From: an uncultured Prevotellaceae bacterium
Lineage (GTDB): Bacteria > Bacteroidota > Bacteroidia > Bacteroidales > Muribaculaceae
DNA length: 38,969 nucleotides
Direction of reading: 5' to 3'
Assembly (NCBI GenBank): GCA_900318335.1
Contig: ONKF01000023.1
Location: 1-38,969, forward strand
The notes beneath the pieces are model-generated. The model saw nothing but the letters and a program-made list of their open reading frames with translations, was not told the DNA's origin and ran no database searches. How positions within the stretch are numbered: the first letter of the stretch is position 1; every line of letters starts with the position of its first letter. Both the position numbers and the translations under genes were made by a program. Of the stretch, positions 21,702-26,531 are shown piece by piece.

Positions 21702-23780
21702 TTATTCTTGCTGCATGTTAAGCAGGAACTCCTCGTTATCACGGGTACGCTCCATGCGCTCCTTGACAAACTCCATCGCCTCGACCGAAGTGCGGTCGCT
21801 CAGGAAGCGGCGGATAATCCACATCTTGTTCAGCGTGTCCTGAGGCAACAGCAAGTCGTCACGACGCGTACTCGATGCCATAACATCGACAGCAGGGAAG
21901 ATTCGCTTATTGGAAAGCTTGCGGTCGAGCTGCAACTCCATGTTACCGGTACCCTTGAATTCCTCAAAGATTACCTCATCCATCTTGGAACCGGTCTCGG
22001 TCAGTGCGGTGGCAATGATAGTCAAGCTTCCTCCACCCTCGATATTGCGGGCGGCACCAAAGAAACGTTTGGGTCGCTGCAGGGCGTTGGCATCCACACC
22101 GCCAGTCAGGATCTTGCCCGATGCAGGTGCGATTGTATTATAGGCACGTGCCAGGCGGGTAATCGAGTCGAGCAGGATGACCACGTCATGGCCACACTCG
22201 ACGAGACGTTTTGCCTTACTCAGTACCAGGTCGGCAATCTTGACGTGGCGGTCGGCCGGCTCGTCAAATGTTGATGCAATCACCTCGGCATTGACGCTGC
22301 GGGCCATATCGGTTACCTCCTCGGGGCGCTCGTCGATGAGCAGGATAATCATGTAGGTCTCAGGGTGGTTCTCTGAAATGGCATTGGCTATTTCCTTCAG
22401 CAGCATAGTCTTACCAGTCTTGGGTTGAGCGACGATAAGACCACGCTGACCTTTGCCGATGGGCGAGAACATGTCAACCACGCGCTGGGAAACAGTAGGA
22501 TGGGTTCGGCTCACCAAGTTGAATTTCTCATCGGGGAACAGGGGCACCAGATGCTCAAACGGCACTCGGTCGCGCACATAGGCGGGAGTGCGGCCATTGA
22601 TAAGACGGATCTCACTCAGCGGGAAGTACTTCTCACCCTCCATGGGCGGACGGATAGTACCCTCGATAACGTCTCCGGTCTTGAGGCCGTAAGCTTTAAT
22701 CTGGGACTGCTGCACATAGATATCATCAGGGGAAGTCAAGTAGTTATAGTCACTCGAGCGCAGGAAACCATAACCCTCGGGAGCGATGTCGAGCACACCC
22801 TGGGCCTCGAGAATGCCATCAAAGTTATAGGGCTGGTCCAGATAGGGATTGACCTCGGCAATCTGCTGCTGTTGCTGCTGTTTCATCTTGCGCTTCTTAT
22901 TCTTGCTCTCCTTGGCCACCTTGGGCTCTTGAATAACGATGGGAGCTGCAGCGGCTTGCTCGGCTGCGCGCTTGCGCTCTTCCTCGGCACGGCGCTGGGC
23001 CTCCTCACGCTCTTCCTGGGTGCGGGGCTTGAATGTGAAACTACTGCCAGTGTTGAAGAATGAGTTCAGTGACACGTCTTCGCGCTCACGGGGTTCAGCT
23101 GGCTGTTGGGTTTGATTCTGCTGCTGTTGTTCCTCAAATATTTGCTCTTCTACTTCAGGTTGGGCTTCAATAACTGGTTCGGGCTGAGGTTCGGCCTCTT
23201 GTTCCATATTATCAAACGGCAAGACGGGCTCGGGTTGCACCTGCTTGGACTTGCGGCCACGGCGGCGGGGTGCCTGTTCCTTGACCTCATCAACCGGTTG
23301 TTCCTCAACAACGGGTTGTTCTTCCATGGCGGGGGCTTCCTGTGCCGGGTTTTGTTCGCTTATGAGAGCGGCATCGCGTGCGGCTTTCTCGGCTGCCGAC
23401 GGGCGGCCACGCTTACGCTTGGGAGTCTCGACAACAGGAGCTGCCTGTTCTTCGGCTTGGGGTTGTTCCTGAGGTTCGGCCTCTACCTTGGCTTCGTCTG
23501 AAACTTTCTTTTTTTCTTTTTTATTTTTGCTCTTTGTGGCTACAGCATCATCCTTGGTCACATCTGTTCCGTTAGCCTTAGCAGCCGGTTGGCGTATGCG
23601 TTCACGGCGGCGTTTCACCGGTTCAGGGGTGTTAGCGGCATCTGTCTCGGCCTGATGGTCCAGGATTTCATAAACGAGAGCTTCACGTTCAAGCGAATCG
23701 ACTTTTTTAAGTCCCATAGACTTTGCCAACTCGTGTAGTTGAGCCTCGGTCATTTCATTCAATTGTTCGAGTATATACAT
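21702..23780 (-). CDS. rho: Transcription termination factor Rho with a large low-complexity insertion
   Basis: A 692-residue hexameric RNA-dependent ATPase that ends transcripts. Residues 1-45 form the N-terminal helix-bundle ([20 protein letters not shown]). About 45-315 is a charged, Q/E/P-rich insertion full of EEQPVVEEQ-like and [10 protein letters not shown]-like runs, almost certainly disordered. The cold-shock RNA-binding domain begins near 320 ([20 protein letters not shown]). The ATPase follows, with Walker A AQPKTGKT near 450, [13 protein letters not shown], and Q/R-loop regions to the end. Enteric Rho is about 419 residues. Disordered insertions are known in gut Bacteroides, where they have been linked to condensate formation and gut fitness. 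A leader of about 270 nt precedes it. Confidence 0.95.
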
Positions 23781-24060: not shown

Positions 24061-24108
24061 CAAAATTAGACATTTTTTTCAACGTGACCAAAAAAAGACG
24101 TAATTTTG
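24061..24108. promoter_or_regulatory. Divergent promoters of rho (-) and the CCA-Ogt gene (+)
   Basis: Minus strand: TTTG at 24092-24089 and TAATTTTG at 24068-24061 with a 20-nt spacer, giving rho a leader of about 270 nt. Plus strand: TAATTTTG at 24101-24108, 20 nt before the CCA-Ogt ATG, with a weak -33. The rest of the 348-nt gap (23781-24128) is the rho leader; no other gene was seen. Confidence 0.55.
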
Positions 24109-24128: not shown

Positions 24129-26054
24129 ATGGAAATCGACCGACATAAAATTGCCGAACATGTTAATCTGCCTGTCATGAAACTGGTAGGTGAAGTTGCC
24201 GACGAAATGGGCCGCGAGTGCTACGTCGTGGGTGGATACGTTAGGGACATCTTTCTGATGCGCCCCAGCAATGACATGGATTTTGTGACGGTCGGCAGTG
24301 GCATTGAGGTGGCTCGGGCTGTGGCTCACCGTTTGGGCAAGCGTGCCCATCTGGCGGTATTCCGCACCTATGGCACAGCTCAGGTAAAGACTCGCCAGTG
24401 GGAATTGGAATTTGTTGGCGCTCGCCGTGAATCCTACCGACGCGAGAGCCGCAACCCCATTGTGGAAGACGGCACCCTGGACGATGATCAGCGCCGCCGT
24501 GACTTCACCATCAATGCGATGGCGATCTGCTTGAATAAGGACCGATACGGCGAGTTGCTGGATCCGTTTGACGGCATCGGTGACATGGAACGCCGCATCA
24601 TCCGCACCCCTCTCGACCCTGACATCACCTTCAGCGACGACCCGCTACGGATGATGCGTGCCGTGAGATTTGCCACACAATTGGATTTTGACATCTATCC
24701 CGAGACGTTCGACGCCATCAGGCGTAACTCAGGACGCATCCGCATCATCACCCGCGAGCGCATTGCCGAGGAGTTGATGAAAATCATGCGCAGCAACCAG
24801 CCCTCACGAGGCTGGATGTTGCTCGACCAGTGCGGCCTGCTGCCGCTCATTTTCCCCGAACTGGCAGCCCTCAAGGGCATCGAGACGGTTAACGGTCGTG
24901 GCCACAAGGATAATTTCATGCACACCCTGCAGGTGCTCGACAATGTGGCCCAGGCCAGCGATGACGTGTGGCTGAGATGGGCAGCGTTGCTCCACGATGT
25001 GGGCAAGGCTCGCACCAAGCGCTGGGACCCGCAGCTGGGATGGACCTTCCATAACCACAACTTCATCGGCGAGAAGATGGTGCCCAAGATTTTTGCCAAA
25101 ATGCGACTGCCGCTCAACGACCACATGAAGTATGTGAAAAAGCTCGTCAGGCTGCACATGCGCCCCATCGCACTTGTCGAGGATGAAGTCACCGACAGCG
25201 CCGTTAGGCGCCTACTGTTTGACGCTGGCGATGACATCGATGACCTGATGACCCTGTGCAAGGCAGACATCACCAGCAAGAACCAGAACAAGGTGCAACG
25301 GTTCCGCGAGAATTTTGACCTGGTGAAGCAGAAACTGGTGGACATCGAGGAGAAAGACCGCGTGCGCAATTTCCAACCACCGGTCGACGGCCAGGAAATC
25401 ATGACCACTTTTGGGCTGGAGCCCTCACGTCCCGTGGGCTATATTAAGGATGCCATTAAGGATGCCATCCTCGACGGCGTCATTACCAACGATTATGCCT
25501 CGGCCTACCGCCTCATGCTCGACAAGGCGGCCGAACTTGACATCACTCCTAATCATGAGGGACAACTGTGCCACACCACGATGCAGACCCCTGTGGGCAC
25601 GCTGCAGATAGCTGCCAGCACACGCGGAGTAGCCCTTATCGGCTGGAATGCCGCCGACGTCGCCAAGATTGCCAAGAAACTGAAGTTAGAGCCTATAGAA
25701 GCAGCGACTCCCCTACTCGACCAGTGCATCAGGCAGCTTGATGAATACTTTGCCGGTACCCGTCGCGAGTTCTCGCTCCCAATCCATGTCACGGGAACCG
25801 ATAACCAGATGAACACATGGGCTGAATTGCAGAAGATCCCTTATGGCGAGACCATTTCCTATGGAGAACAGGCCAAACGCATGGGTAACCCTAAAGCGTG
25901 CCGCGCTGTTGCCCAGGCCAACCATAACAATCCCGTGGCCATAGTCATCCCTTGCCACCGCGTCATTAATGCCGATGGCACCTTGGGCGGTTACGCCCCC
26001 GGAGTAGAAATCAAACAATTCCTACTCAATTTAGAAAAAGAAAATAAGCAGTAA
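24129..26054 (+). CDS. Fusion of CCA tRNA nucleotidyltransferase (HD type) and O6-methylguanine-DNA methyltransferase
   Basis: One uninterrupted 641-residue frame with two complete enzymes. Residues 1-471 form a CCA-adding enzyme: GGYVRD (35-40), metal aspartates D49 and D51 in NDMDFV, RRRDFTINAMAI (about 120-131), the neck/body, and an HD phosphohydrolase domain with H265 and H289-D290. Residues 484-641 form an Ogt/MGMT suicide repair protein: TPVGTLQIAAS start, WAELQKIPYGETISYGEQA helix-turn-helix, RAVAQANHNNP, then IPCHRV with the alkyl-acceptor C609. A short linker (472-483) joins them. The two activities, repair of tRNA 3' ends and of alkylated guanine in DNA, are not known to me as partners. 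An in-frame ATG at codon 485 could make free Ogt. It ends 3 nt from converging gtrA. Confidence 0.92.
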   Translation: MEIDRHKIAEHVNLPVMKLVGEVADEMGRECYVVGGYVRDIFLMRPSNDMDFVTVGSGIEVARAVAHRLGKRAHLAVFRTYGTAQVKTRQWELEFVGARRESYRRESRNPIVEDGTLDDDQRRRDFTINAMAICLNKDRYGELLDPFDGIGDMERRIIRTPLDPDITFSDDPLRMMRAVRFATQLDFDIYPETFDAIRRNSGRIRIITRERIAEELMKIMRSNQPSRGWMLLDQCGLLPLIFPELAALKGIETVNGRGHKDNFMHTLQVLDNVAQASDDVWLRWAALLHDVGKARTKRWDPQLGWTFHNHNFIGEKMVPKIFAKMRLPLNDHMKYVKKLVRLHMRPIALVEDEVTDSAVRRLLFDAGDDIDDLMTLCKADITSKNQNKVQRFRENFDLVKQKLVDIEEKDRVRNFQPPVDGQEIMTTFGLEPSRPVGYIKDAIKDAILDGVITNDYASAYRLMLDKAAELDITPNHEGQLCHTTMQTPVGTLQIAASTRGVALIGWNAADVAKIAKKLKLEPIEAATPLLDQCIRQLDEYFAGTRREFSLPIHVTGTDNQMNTWAELQKIPYGETISYGEQAKRMGNPKACRAVAQANHNNPVAIVIPCHRVINADGTLGGYAPGVEIKQFLLNLEKENKQ

Positions 26055-26057
26055 AGT

Positions 26058-26531
26058 TTACTTGGGCGCAGAGCCCTTGGGGTTAACACGGAATGTGACT
26101 GTGCGGTTGTAGATGTAGTTTGCCAGGGTATAGGCCACCATGGCAAGAAGCATGACGATGTTCTGGCCAGCCTTCTCCATCGGGAAGAAGGGGATAATGT
26201 CATCAGGCAGATCTTTCCAGTGGAGACCTTCGAGCAAGATCCAGCTGACGCACAGCTGCAAAGCGAGGCAGATGAGAAAACCGCACACAAAGAGGAAGAG
26301 CTCACGCTTGACGTTGTCCTTGCTCTTAAATACCCAATTGCGGTTCCAGATAAAACTGTTGATGACACCAAGCACATAGCCGGTAACGTTAGAGATTCCG
26401 TAAGAAAGGCCTAACTTGGTATTGAGCAAATAGAAAGCCACAAGCGTGATCAGCGTGTTAGACACACCTATCACTGCATATTTGAGAAGTTGTATACCCG
26501 TCTCGCGGGCTTCGGCTTTATCTATCTTCAT
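26058..26531 (-). CDS. GtrA family membrane protein
   Basis: A 157-residue protein with four membrane segments (about 16-37, 42-60, 76-99, 122-142), typical of GtrA. These proteins are thought to help move lipid-linked sugars across the inner membrane for cell-surface glycan modification. The segments LLKYAVIGVSNTLITLVAFYLL and the basic NRNWVFKSK and YNRTVTFR turns are characteristic. No glycosyltransferase partner is adjacent, so the substrate is unknown. The stop codons of this gene and the CCA-Ogt gene face each other 3 nt apart. Confidence 0.85.
   Translation of the reverse strand: MKIDKAEARETGIQLLKYAVIGVSNTLITLVAFYLLNTKLGLSYGISNVTGYVLGVINSFIWNRNWVFKSKDNVKRELFLFVCGFLICLALQLCVSWILLEGLHWKDLPDDIIPFFPMEKAGQNIVMLLAMVAYTLANYIYNRTVTFRVNPKGSAPK

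Follow-up and report, generated by a model that had tools for sequence, protein, structure and literature searches.

A cca-ogt gene fusion conserved in one branch of gut and rumen Muribaculaceae

The window (the whole stretch of 38,969 nucleotides that was analyzed, contig ONKF01000023.1 of an uncultured Prevotellaceae bacterium assigned to the Muribaculaceae) contains, between rho and a GtrA/DPMS-domain gene, one open reading frame that starts with ATG and is free of internal stops (Table 1). The encoded protein matched five Pfam domains in order, all above their cut-offs, and consists of two complete enzymes, a class II tRNA nucleotidyltransferase (CCA enzyme) and, C-terminal to it, an O6-alkylguanine-DNA alkyltransferase (Ogt). 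This agrees with the sequence-only reading of the window, which had described a full HD-type CCA enzyme and a full Ogt in one frame and an intact PCHRV active site; the PCHRV motif was found, with its cysteine at position 609. The candidate promoter element upstream of the gene was likened to the Bacteroidetes -7 element, whose consensus we take to be TAnnTTTG.

Table 1. Features of the cca-ogt locus and its neighbors (positions in the window)
Feature	Position	Strand	Basis
Fused cca-ogt gene, 641 aa	24129..26054	+	ORF and Pfam; unbroken frame in 77/101 genus genomes
PolyA_pol nucleotidyltransferase head, residues 31-159, with GGYVRD, DMD and RRD motifs	24219..24605	+	Pfam; conservation in 73 distinct fused proteins
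PolyA_pol_RNAbd, RNA-binding neck/body, residues 186-247	24684..24869	+	Pfam
HD domain, residues 263-348; H265, H289 and D290 in 73/73	24915..25172	+	Pfam; conservation
Linker, residues 470-478, last CCA helix to first Ogt strand	25536..25562	+	AlphaFold2 model; dN/dS
Methyltransf_1N, Ogt N-terminal ribonuclease-like domain, residues 482-552	25572..25784	+	Pfam
In-frame ATG (M485), proposed internal start, unlikely	25581..25583	+	Sequence; model; conservation
DNA_binding_1, Ogt catalytic/DNA-binding domain, residues 560-637	25806..26039	+	Pfam
Cys609, predicted alkyl acceptor in PCHRV	25953..25955	+	Sequence; 73/73 conserved
rho, divergent upstream neighbor (context)	21702..23780	-	ORF list; neighbor comparison
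GtrA/DPMS-domain gene, convergent downstream neighbor	26058..26531	-	Context for the apparent in-place Ogt loss in relatives
TAATTTTG, candidate Bacteroidetes -7 promoter element upstream of cca-ogt	24101..24108	+	Sequence likeness

Each half was assigned to a known family. The first half has the PolyA_pol head, the RNA-binding body and the HD domain in the order of a class II tRNA nucleotidyltransferase, and with NCBIfam it came closest to CCA tRNA nucleotidyltransferases, the best equivalog being TIGR02692, at 355.7 bits versus a cut-off of 438.8. The second half has both the N-terminal and the DNA-binding domain of Ogt/MGMT and matched TIGR00589 (ogt) with 112.4 bits (cut-off, 46.4). It is not an Ada protein: no AraC-type domain was found with Pfam, and PRK15435 was matched with 106.7 bits versus a cut-off of 345. 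In sequence and fold comparisons against solved structures, the first half resembled tRNA nucleotidyltransferases and poly(A) polymerases and the second half alkyltransferases.

Profile searches of the window's genome gave a single PF01035 match and a single PF12627 match, and 21 of the 23 genomes in which the family survey found the fusion had no second PF01035 match. CCA was encoded in only 7 of 30 distinct tRNA genes (the best 30 of 39 found), a count obtained after manual removal of duplicates that came from overlapping loci (before this, 10 of 36 rows encoded CCA) and including a few acceptor stems with 6/7 pairs or an odd discriminator. Because the other 23 tRNA genes do not encode CCA and no other such enzyme was found in the genome, CCA specificity of the first half is favored, and the fused enzyme is probably essential.

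Conservation was counted in 73 distinct fused proteins, which remained when 8 partial and 9 identical sequences were removed from the 90 frames with both halves. In the nucleotidyltransferase head, whose motifs we take to be those called GG..RD, DxD, RRD and DDxxR, residues G35, G36, R39, D40, D49, R124, D125, D170, D171 and R174 were present in all 73 proteins, as were the three HD residues. D51 was present in 72 proteins (one has H), and R123 also in 72, the exception being an unread letter. In the Ogt half, R592, N601, P608, C609, H610, R611 and K629 were invariant and Y572 was variable (67/73). ATL proteins are alkyltransferase-like proteins without the PCHR cysteine. The earlier claim that both modules keep their key residues was thus borne out by 72 or all 73 of the proteins; an earlier count over 56 rows, which held one identical pair (L037 and L105), gave the same picture.

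Pairwise comparison of 32 close sequences gave median dN/dS values of 0.048 for the CCA part (496/496 pairs unsaturated), 0.15 for Ogt (422/496) and 0.20, the highest of the three, for the linker stretch 466-482 (293/496). The values are rough, with synonymous sites near saturation, and they indicate that purifying selection acts on both halves.

An AlphaFold2 model, built from an alignment of 41 sequences (28 fused and 13 unfused), had a mean pLDDT of 91.9, with both domains confidently modeled; its pTM of 0.68 does not fix their relative arrangement. In the model the last CCA helix ends at residue 469 and the first Ogt strand spans residues 479-487, so that the linker is about 9 residues long and not about 12 as first estimated. 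The in-frame ATG at codon 485, from which the sequence-only reading had suggested that free Ogt might be released, is present, but position 485 is Met in only 37 of the 73 distinct fused proteins and lies within the first Ogt strand. An internal start at M485 is therefore unlikely. Some in-frame ATG occurs within columns 468-492 in 52/73 of the proteins, which would be in favor of free Ogt from the same gene, produced either through a second start near M485 or through cleavage at the linker. However, the Ogt of a related two-gene locus begins, as aligned by eye, at the equivalent of window residue 478, before the first strand, and together with the position and variability of M485 this makes release of free Ogt quite unlikely.

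The fusion was present as one unbroken frame across both halves in 77 of the 101 genomes of the genus. In five more genomes both halves are present, but the gene is broken or altered: it lies at contig ends in G602 and G606 and at a contig edge, with unread letters, in G590; in G646 the frame breaks within the CCA part, and G611 is described below. Eleven genomes are unfused, and the remaining eight comprise one gene cut by the contig end (G654), one distant paralog only (G636) and six genomes without a match. Both halves were therefore found in one gene or its broken pieces in 82 of the 93 decidable genomes. In a second collection of 70 loci from named genome contigs, which overlaps with the genus genomes, 40 loci were fused in one frame. 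L036 and L062, from the same MAG, are probably two pieces of another fusion, and in L051 the frame is broken. Another 18 Bacteroidota loci lack an in-frame Ogt, and nine loci encode distant enzymes with 30-32% identity.

Among the matches listed in a survey of 198 genomes of the family, the fusion was found in three genera: the window's own (14 of 16 genomes), g28 (5 of 5) and g23 (4 of 9, with one of the four divided between two contig ends). Among the matches listed for 393 genomes of the order, none but the window passes query residue 518 without reading through stops; one other listed match goes past this residue and reads through stops. In the phylum (395 genomes), the longest open frame around PF01035 among the matches listed was 423 aa. 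These last two surveys cover the matches listed and may overlook rarer fusions. In G190, G162 and G173, the long frames around CCA were judged by eye to be upstream read-through and not domains.

These results show a genuine fusion that is conserved within one branch of bacteria of the gut and rumen. The chance that it is an assembly or frameshift artifact is negligible: nothing was found in favor of this, since the breaks and the unread gap in G646 and G590 break a fusion and do not make one, and an unbroken frame in so many genomes of the genus, from many separate species, is against it. Separate genes in all relatives, which the sequence-only reading had named as evidence that would count against a fusion, were not found, with 77 fused and 11 unfused genomes out of 101.

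The CCA tree draws the eleven unfused genus members among fused ones, as a group of nine and a pair, G616 and G591. The pair was placed beside the fused G617 with a support of 97, and the branches placing the group of nine had supports mostly of 81-92, below 95. When the 26 sampled fused genus rows were forced into one CCA clade, the log-likelihood decreased by 35.6 units and a common clade for the fused CCA halves of genus g1 was rejected with a p-AU of 0.037, a modest value for a group that was named after the tree was seen. The CCA tree leaves out many close fused rows and labels L171 (G654, cut by the contig end) as unfused, which inflates its seven changes. The three fused g23 rows were not rejected as one clade (p 0.75, with a likelihood 10.5 higher), and the nested loss in g23 drawn by quick trees was not borne out by this constraint test. 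All trees were built from selected fetched genomes rather than from all genomes surveyed, and near-duplicates, partial and frame-broken loci and nine distant loci (L063-L071) were left out.

In G616 and G591, cca has no Ogt and is flanked by the same rho upstream and the same GtrA-domain gene downstream. In this pair the aligned gtrA codons start 102 and 11 bases past the cca stop, compared with 6 bases in the fused G617 and 7 in the window. Because both neighbors are unchanged, the Ogt half appears, most simply, to have been lost in place. Within 2 kb behind the unfused cca genes no convincing Ogt relic was detected, the matches having E values of 0.03 to 0.7 only; the broken fused genes L169 and L170 were matched in the same search, and L154 and L171 offered fewer than 100 bases or none. 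An unlinked Ogt or Ada-like protein is encoded by seven of the eleven unfused genomes; one more has a weak match, and in three none was found. Six of these seven are ordinary Ogts and fall in another Ogt group (support 98). The seventh, in G173, has an alkyltransferase domain, and its AraC-type helix-turn-helix matches are all below cut-off.

The opposite loss was seen in G611 (L167:1803-3314, +), where the HD domain and Ogt are in one frame without the nucleotidyltransferase head, and the RNA-binding match is 21.6 bits, below the cut-off of 22. This genome carries a second, diverged nucleotidyltransferase. Compared with its nearest relatives, the G611 protein has 73% identity in the CCA body and 74% in Ogt. 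In 229 other pairs with Ogt identities of 65-70% (no 70-75% bin was made), the body identity was at least 81%, with a median of 92%, indicating that the CCA body of G611 has sped up and its Ogt has not. Losses of either half alone thus appear to have occurred among relatives, which suggests that neither half needs the other.

A second class II nucleotidyltransferase with 32-34% identity to the CCA half occurs in six genomes of the genus (L192-L197, from G611, G636, G180, G146, G629 and G588). In L196 it lies beside TROVE/Ro60, RtcB and RlaP genes, an arrangement that resembles an RNA-repair cluster, and in L193 a WYL gene is nearby.

The cca and ogt genes of G027 (L072) are separate and overlap by four bases, ATGA, so that the ogt start shares bases with the cca stop. 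The two genes have the same order and strand as the two halves of the fusion but encode two proteins, and such an overlapping pair is likely the precursor form. The fusion would then have formed when a translationally coupled cca-ogt pair became one frame. Ogt trees draw the fused Ogts as two groups. When the 56 fused Ogts of a reduced set were constrained to one clade, this was not rejected (log-likelihood +5.0, p-AU 0.61), and a single origin is therefore allowed by the Ogt sequences. Seven long-branch Ogt rows, one of them fused (L091), were dropped for this test, and ten (93 to 83 rows) for a later Ogt tree. A single fusion event in an ancestor shared by three Muribaculaceae genera is probable. 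In G010 (L120), one strand carries cca, a PTPS-family (6-pyruvoyl-tetrahydropterin-synthase) gene, a radical SAM gene and ogt; the two middle genes are presumably QueD-like and QueE-like. A QueD-like gene starts directly after cca in several other unfused relatives, as judged by eye.

The protein would have two functions. Residues 1 to 465-470 are predicted to add CCA to tRNA 3' ends, an activity that the cell would require, since CCA is missing from most of the tRNA genes examined. The last ~160 residues, with intact catalytic residues, would take alkyl groups off O6-alkylguanine in DNA and transfer them one-way to Cys609. We consider it probable, on the evidence of the gene comparisons, that the protein is bifunctional with halves that work independently, and that the gain is a constant supply of Ogt, co-expressed from a housekeeping gene. 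Co-expression was one of two ideas in the sequence-only reading, and it became the better supported one through the loss of Ogt with cca in place, the loss of the CCA head in one genome and the coupled two-gene locus. For the other idea, that one part senses or repairs alkylated nucleic acid tied to tRNA, nothing was found in support. Two observations weigh on the other side: the persistence of the fusion in 82 of 93 decidable genomes exceeds what a purely neutral join needs, and the modest supports for the group of nine unfused genomes slightly lower our confidence.

The fusion could also serve control, in that alkylation of Cys609 would open Ogt and the whole protein would be destroyed or inhibited, with less CCA addition and slower translation under alkylation stress. 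According to a review, AGT opens when alkylated, and its degradation by the proteasome has been reported for humans, mice, yeast and an archaeal AGT (PMC10779285); the same review notes that the extent of this in other organisms is yet to be established. As no other CCA-type enzyme or Ogt was found in the window's genome, such a coupling would be consequential. However, each repair event would cost one copy of a probably essential enzyme, 11 of the 101 genus genomes have cca without a fused Ogt, and G611 keeps Ogt without the nucleotidyltransferase head, so that we regard this control as very unlikely. Its switch-like form, in which Cys609 alkylation inactivates or destabilizes the cell's only CCA-adding enzyme and DNA alkylation throttles tRNA maturation and translation, is highly improbable. 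That Ogt repairs O6-alkylguanine in tRNA delivered by the CCA half would fit with the fact that about 9 linker residues tie it physically to an enzyme that binds tRNA. Yet the Ogt half retains Arg592, PCHR and the DNA-binding domain as ordinary Ogts do, seven of the eleven unfused genomes have an unlinked Ogt or Ada-like protein instead, and a search of open-access papers turned up none on the subject; this reading is highly improbable as well.

The fusion unites a probably essential RNA-maturation enzyme with a suicide DNA-repair enzyme. The genus offers a natural experiment, with the Ogt half missing in place in some species and the nucleotidyltransferase head missing in one genome, and the value of the fusion can be compared across close relatives. 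For annotation, ogt may seem absent in these genomes, being at the end of cca.

The fusion is a new arrangement of known parts, as both halves belong to known families. The sequence-only reading had called the pairing of tRNA 3'-end repair with DNA alkylation repair unfamiliar, and no paper on a CCA enzyme-Ogt pairing was found among the open-access papers searched, which leave most subscription papers and all preprints outside. A different cca fusion, in which a HAD-type phosphatase shares a 680-aa frame with the CCA enzyme N-terminus (L050:766-2805, +), occurs in one genome (G049), on the same contig as L090. Compared with class II CCA-adding enzymes (PF01743-PF12627-HD), the window protein has the same domain order and core motif residues, and the solved structures that match it best are those of tRNA nucleotidyltransferases, among them 3wfr, 1vfg and 3h37; it differs in bearing a C-terminal Ogt, and its CCA specificity is predicted. 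Free-standing Ogt/MGMT proteins (TIGR00589, PF02870-PF01035) have in common with the Ogt half both domains, the PCHRV cysteine and Arg592, and M. tuberculosis Ogt (4wxd) matches window residues 484-638, but the Ogt half has no gene start of its own and follows about 9 residues after the CCA enzyme. Ada, an AraC-type regulator fused to an alkyltransferase, likewise combines an alkyltransferase with a second module, but its partner is a regulator and here it is a tRNA maturation enzyme. Two further natural AGT fusions of this kind, named in the review cited above, have other partners: a repair endonuclease in AGTendoV of Ferroplasma and a histone-like domain in C. elegans AGT-2 (PMC10779285).
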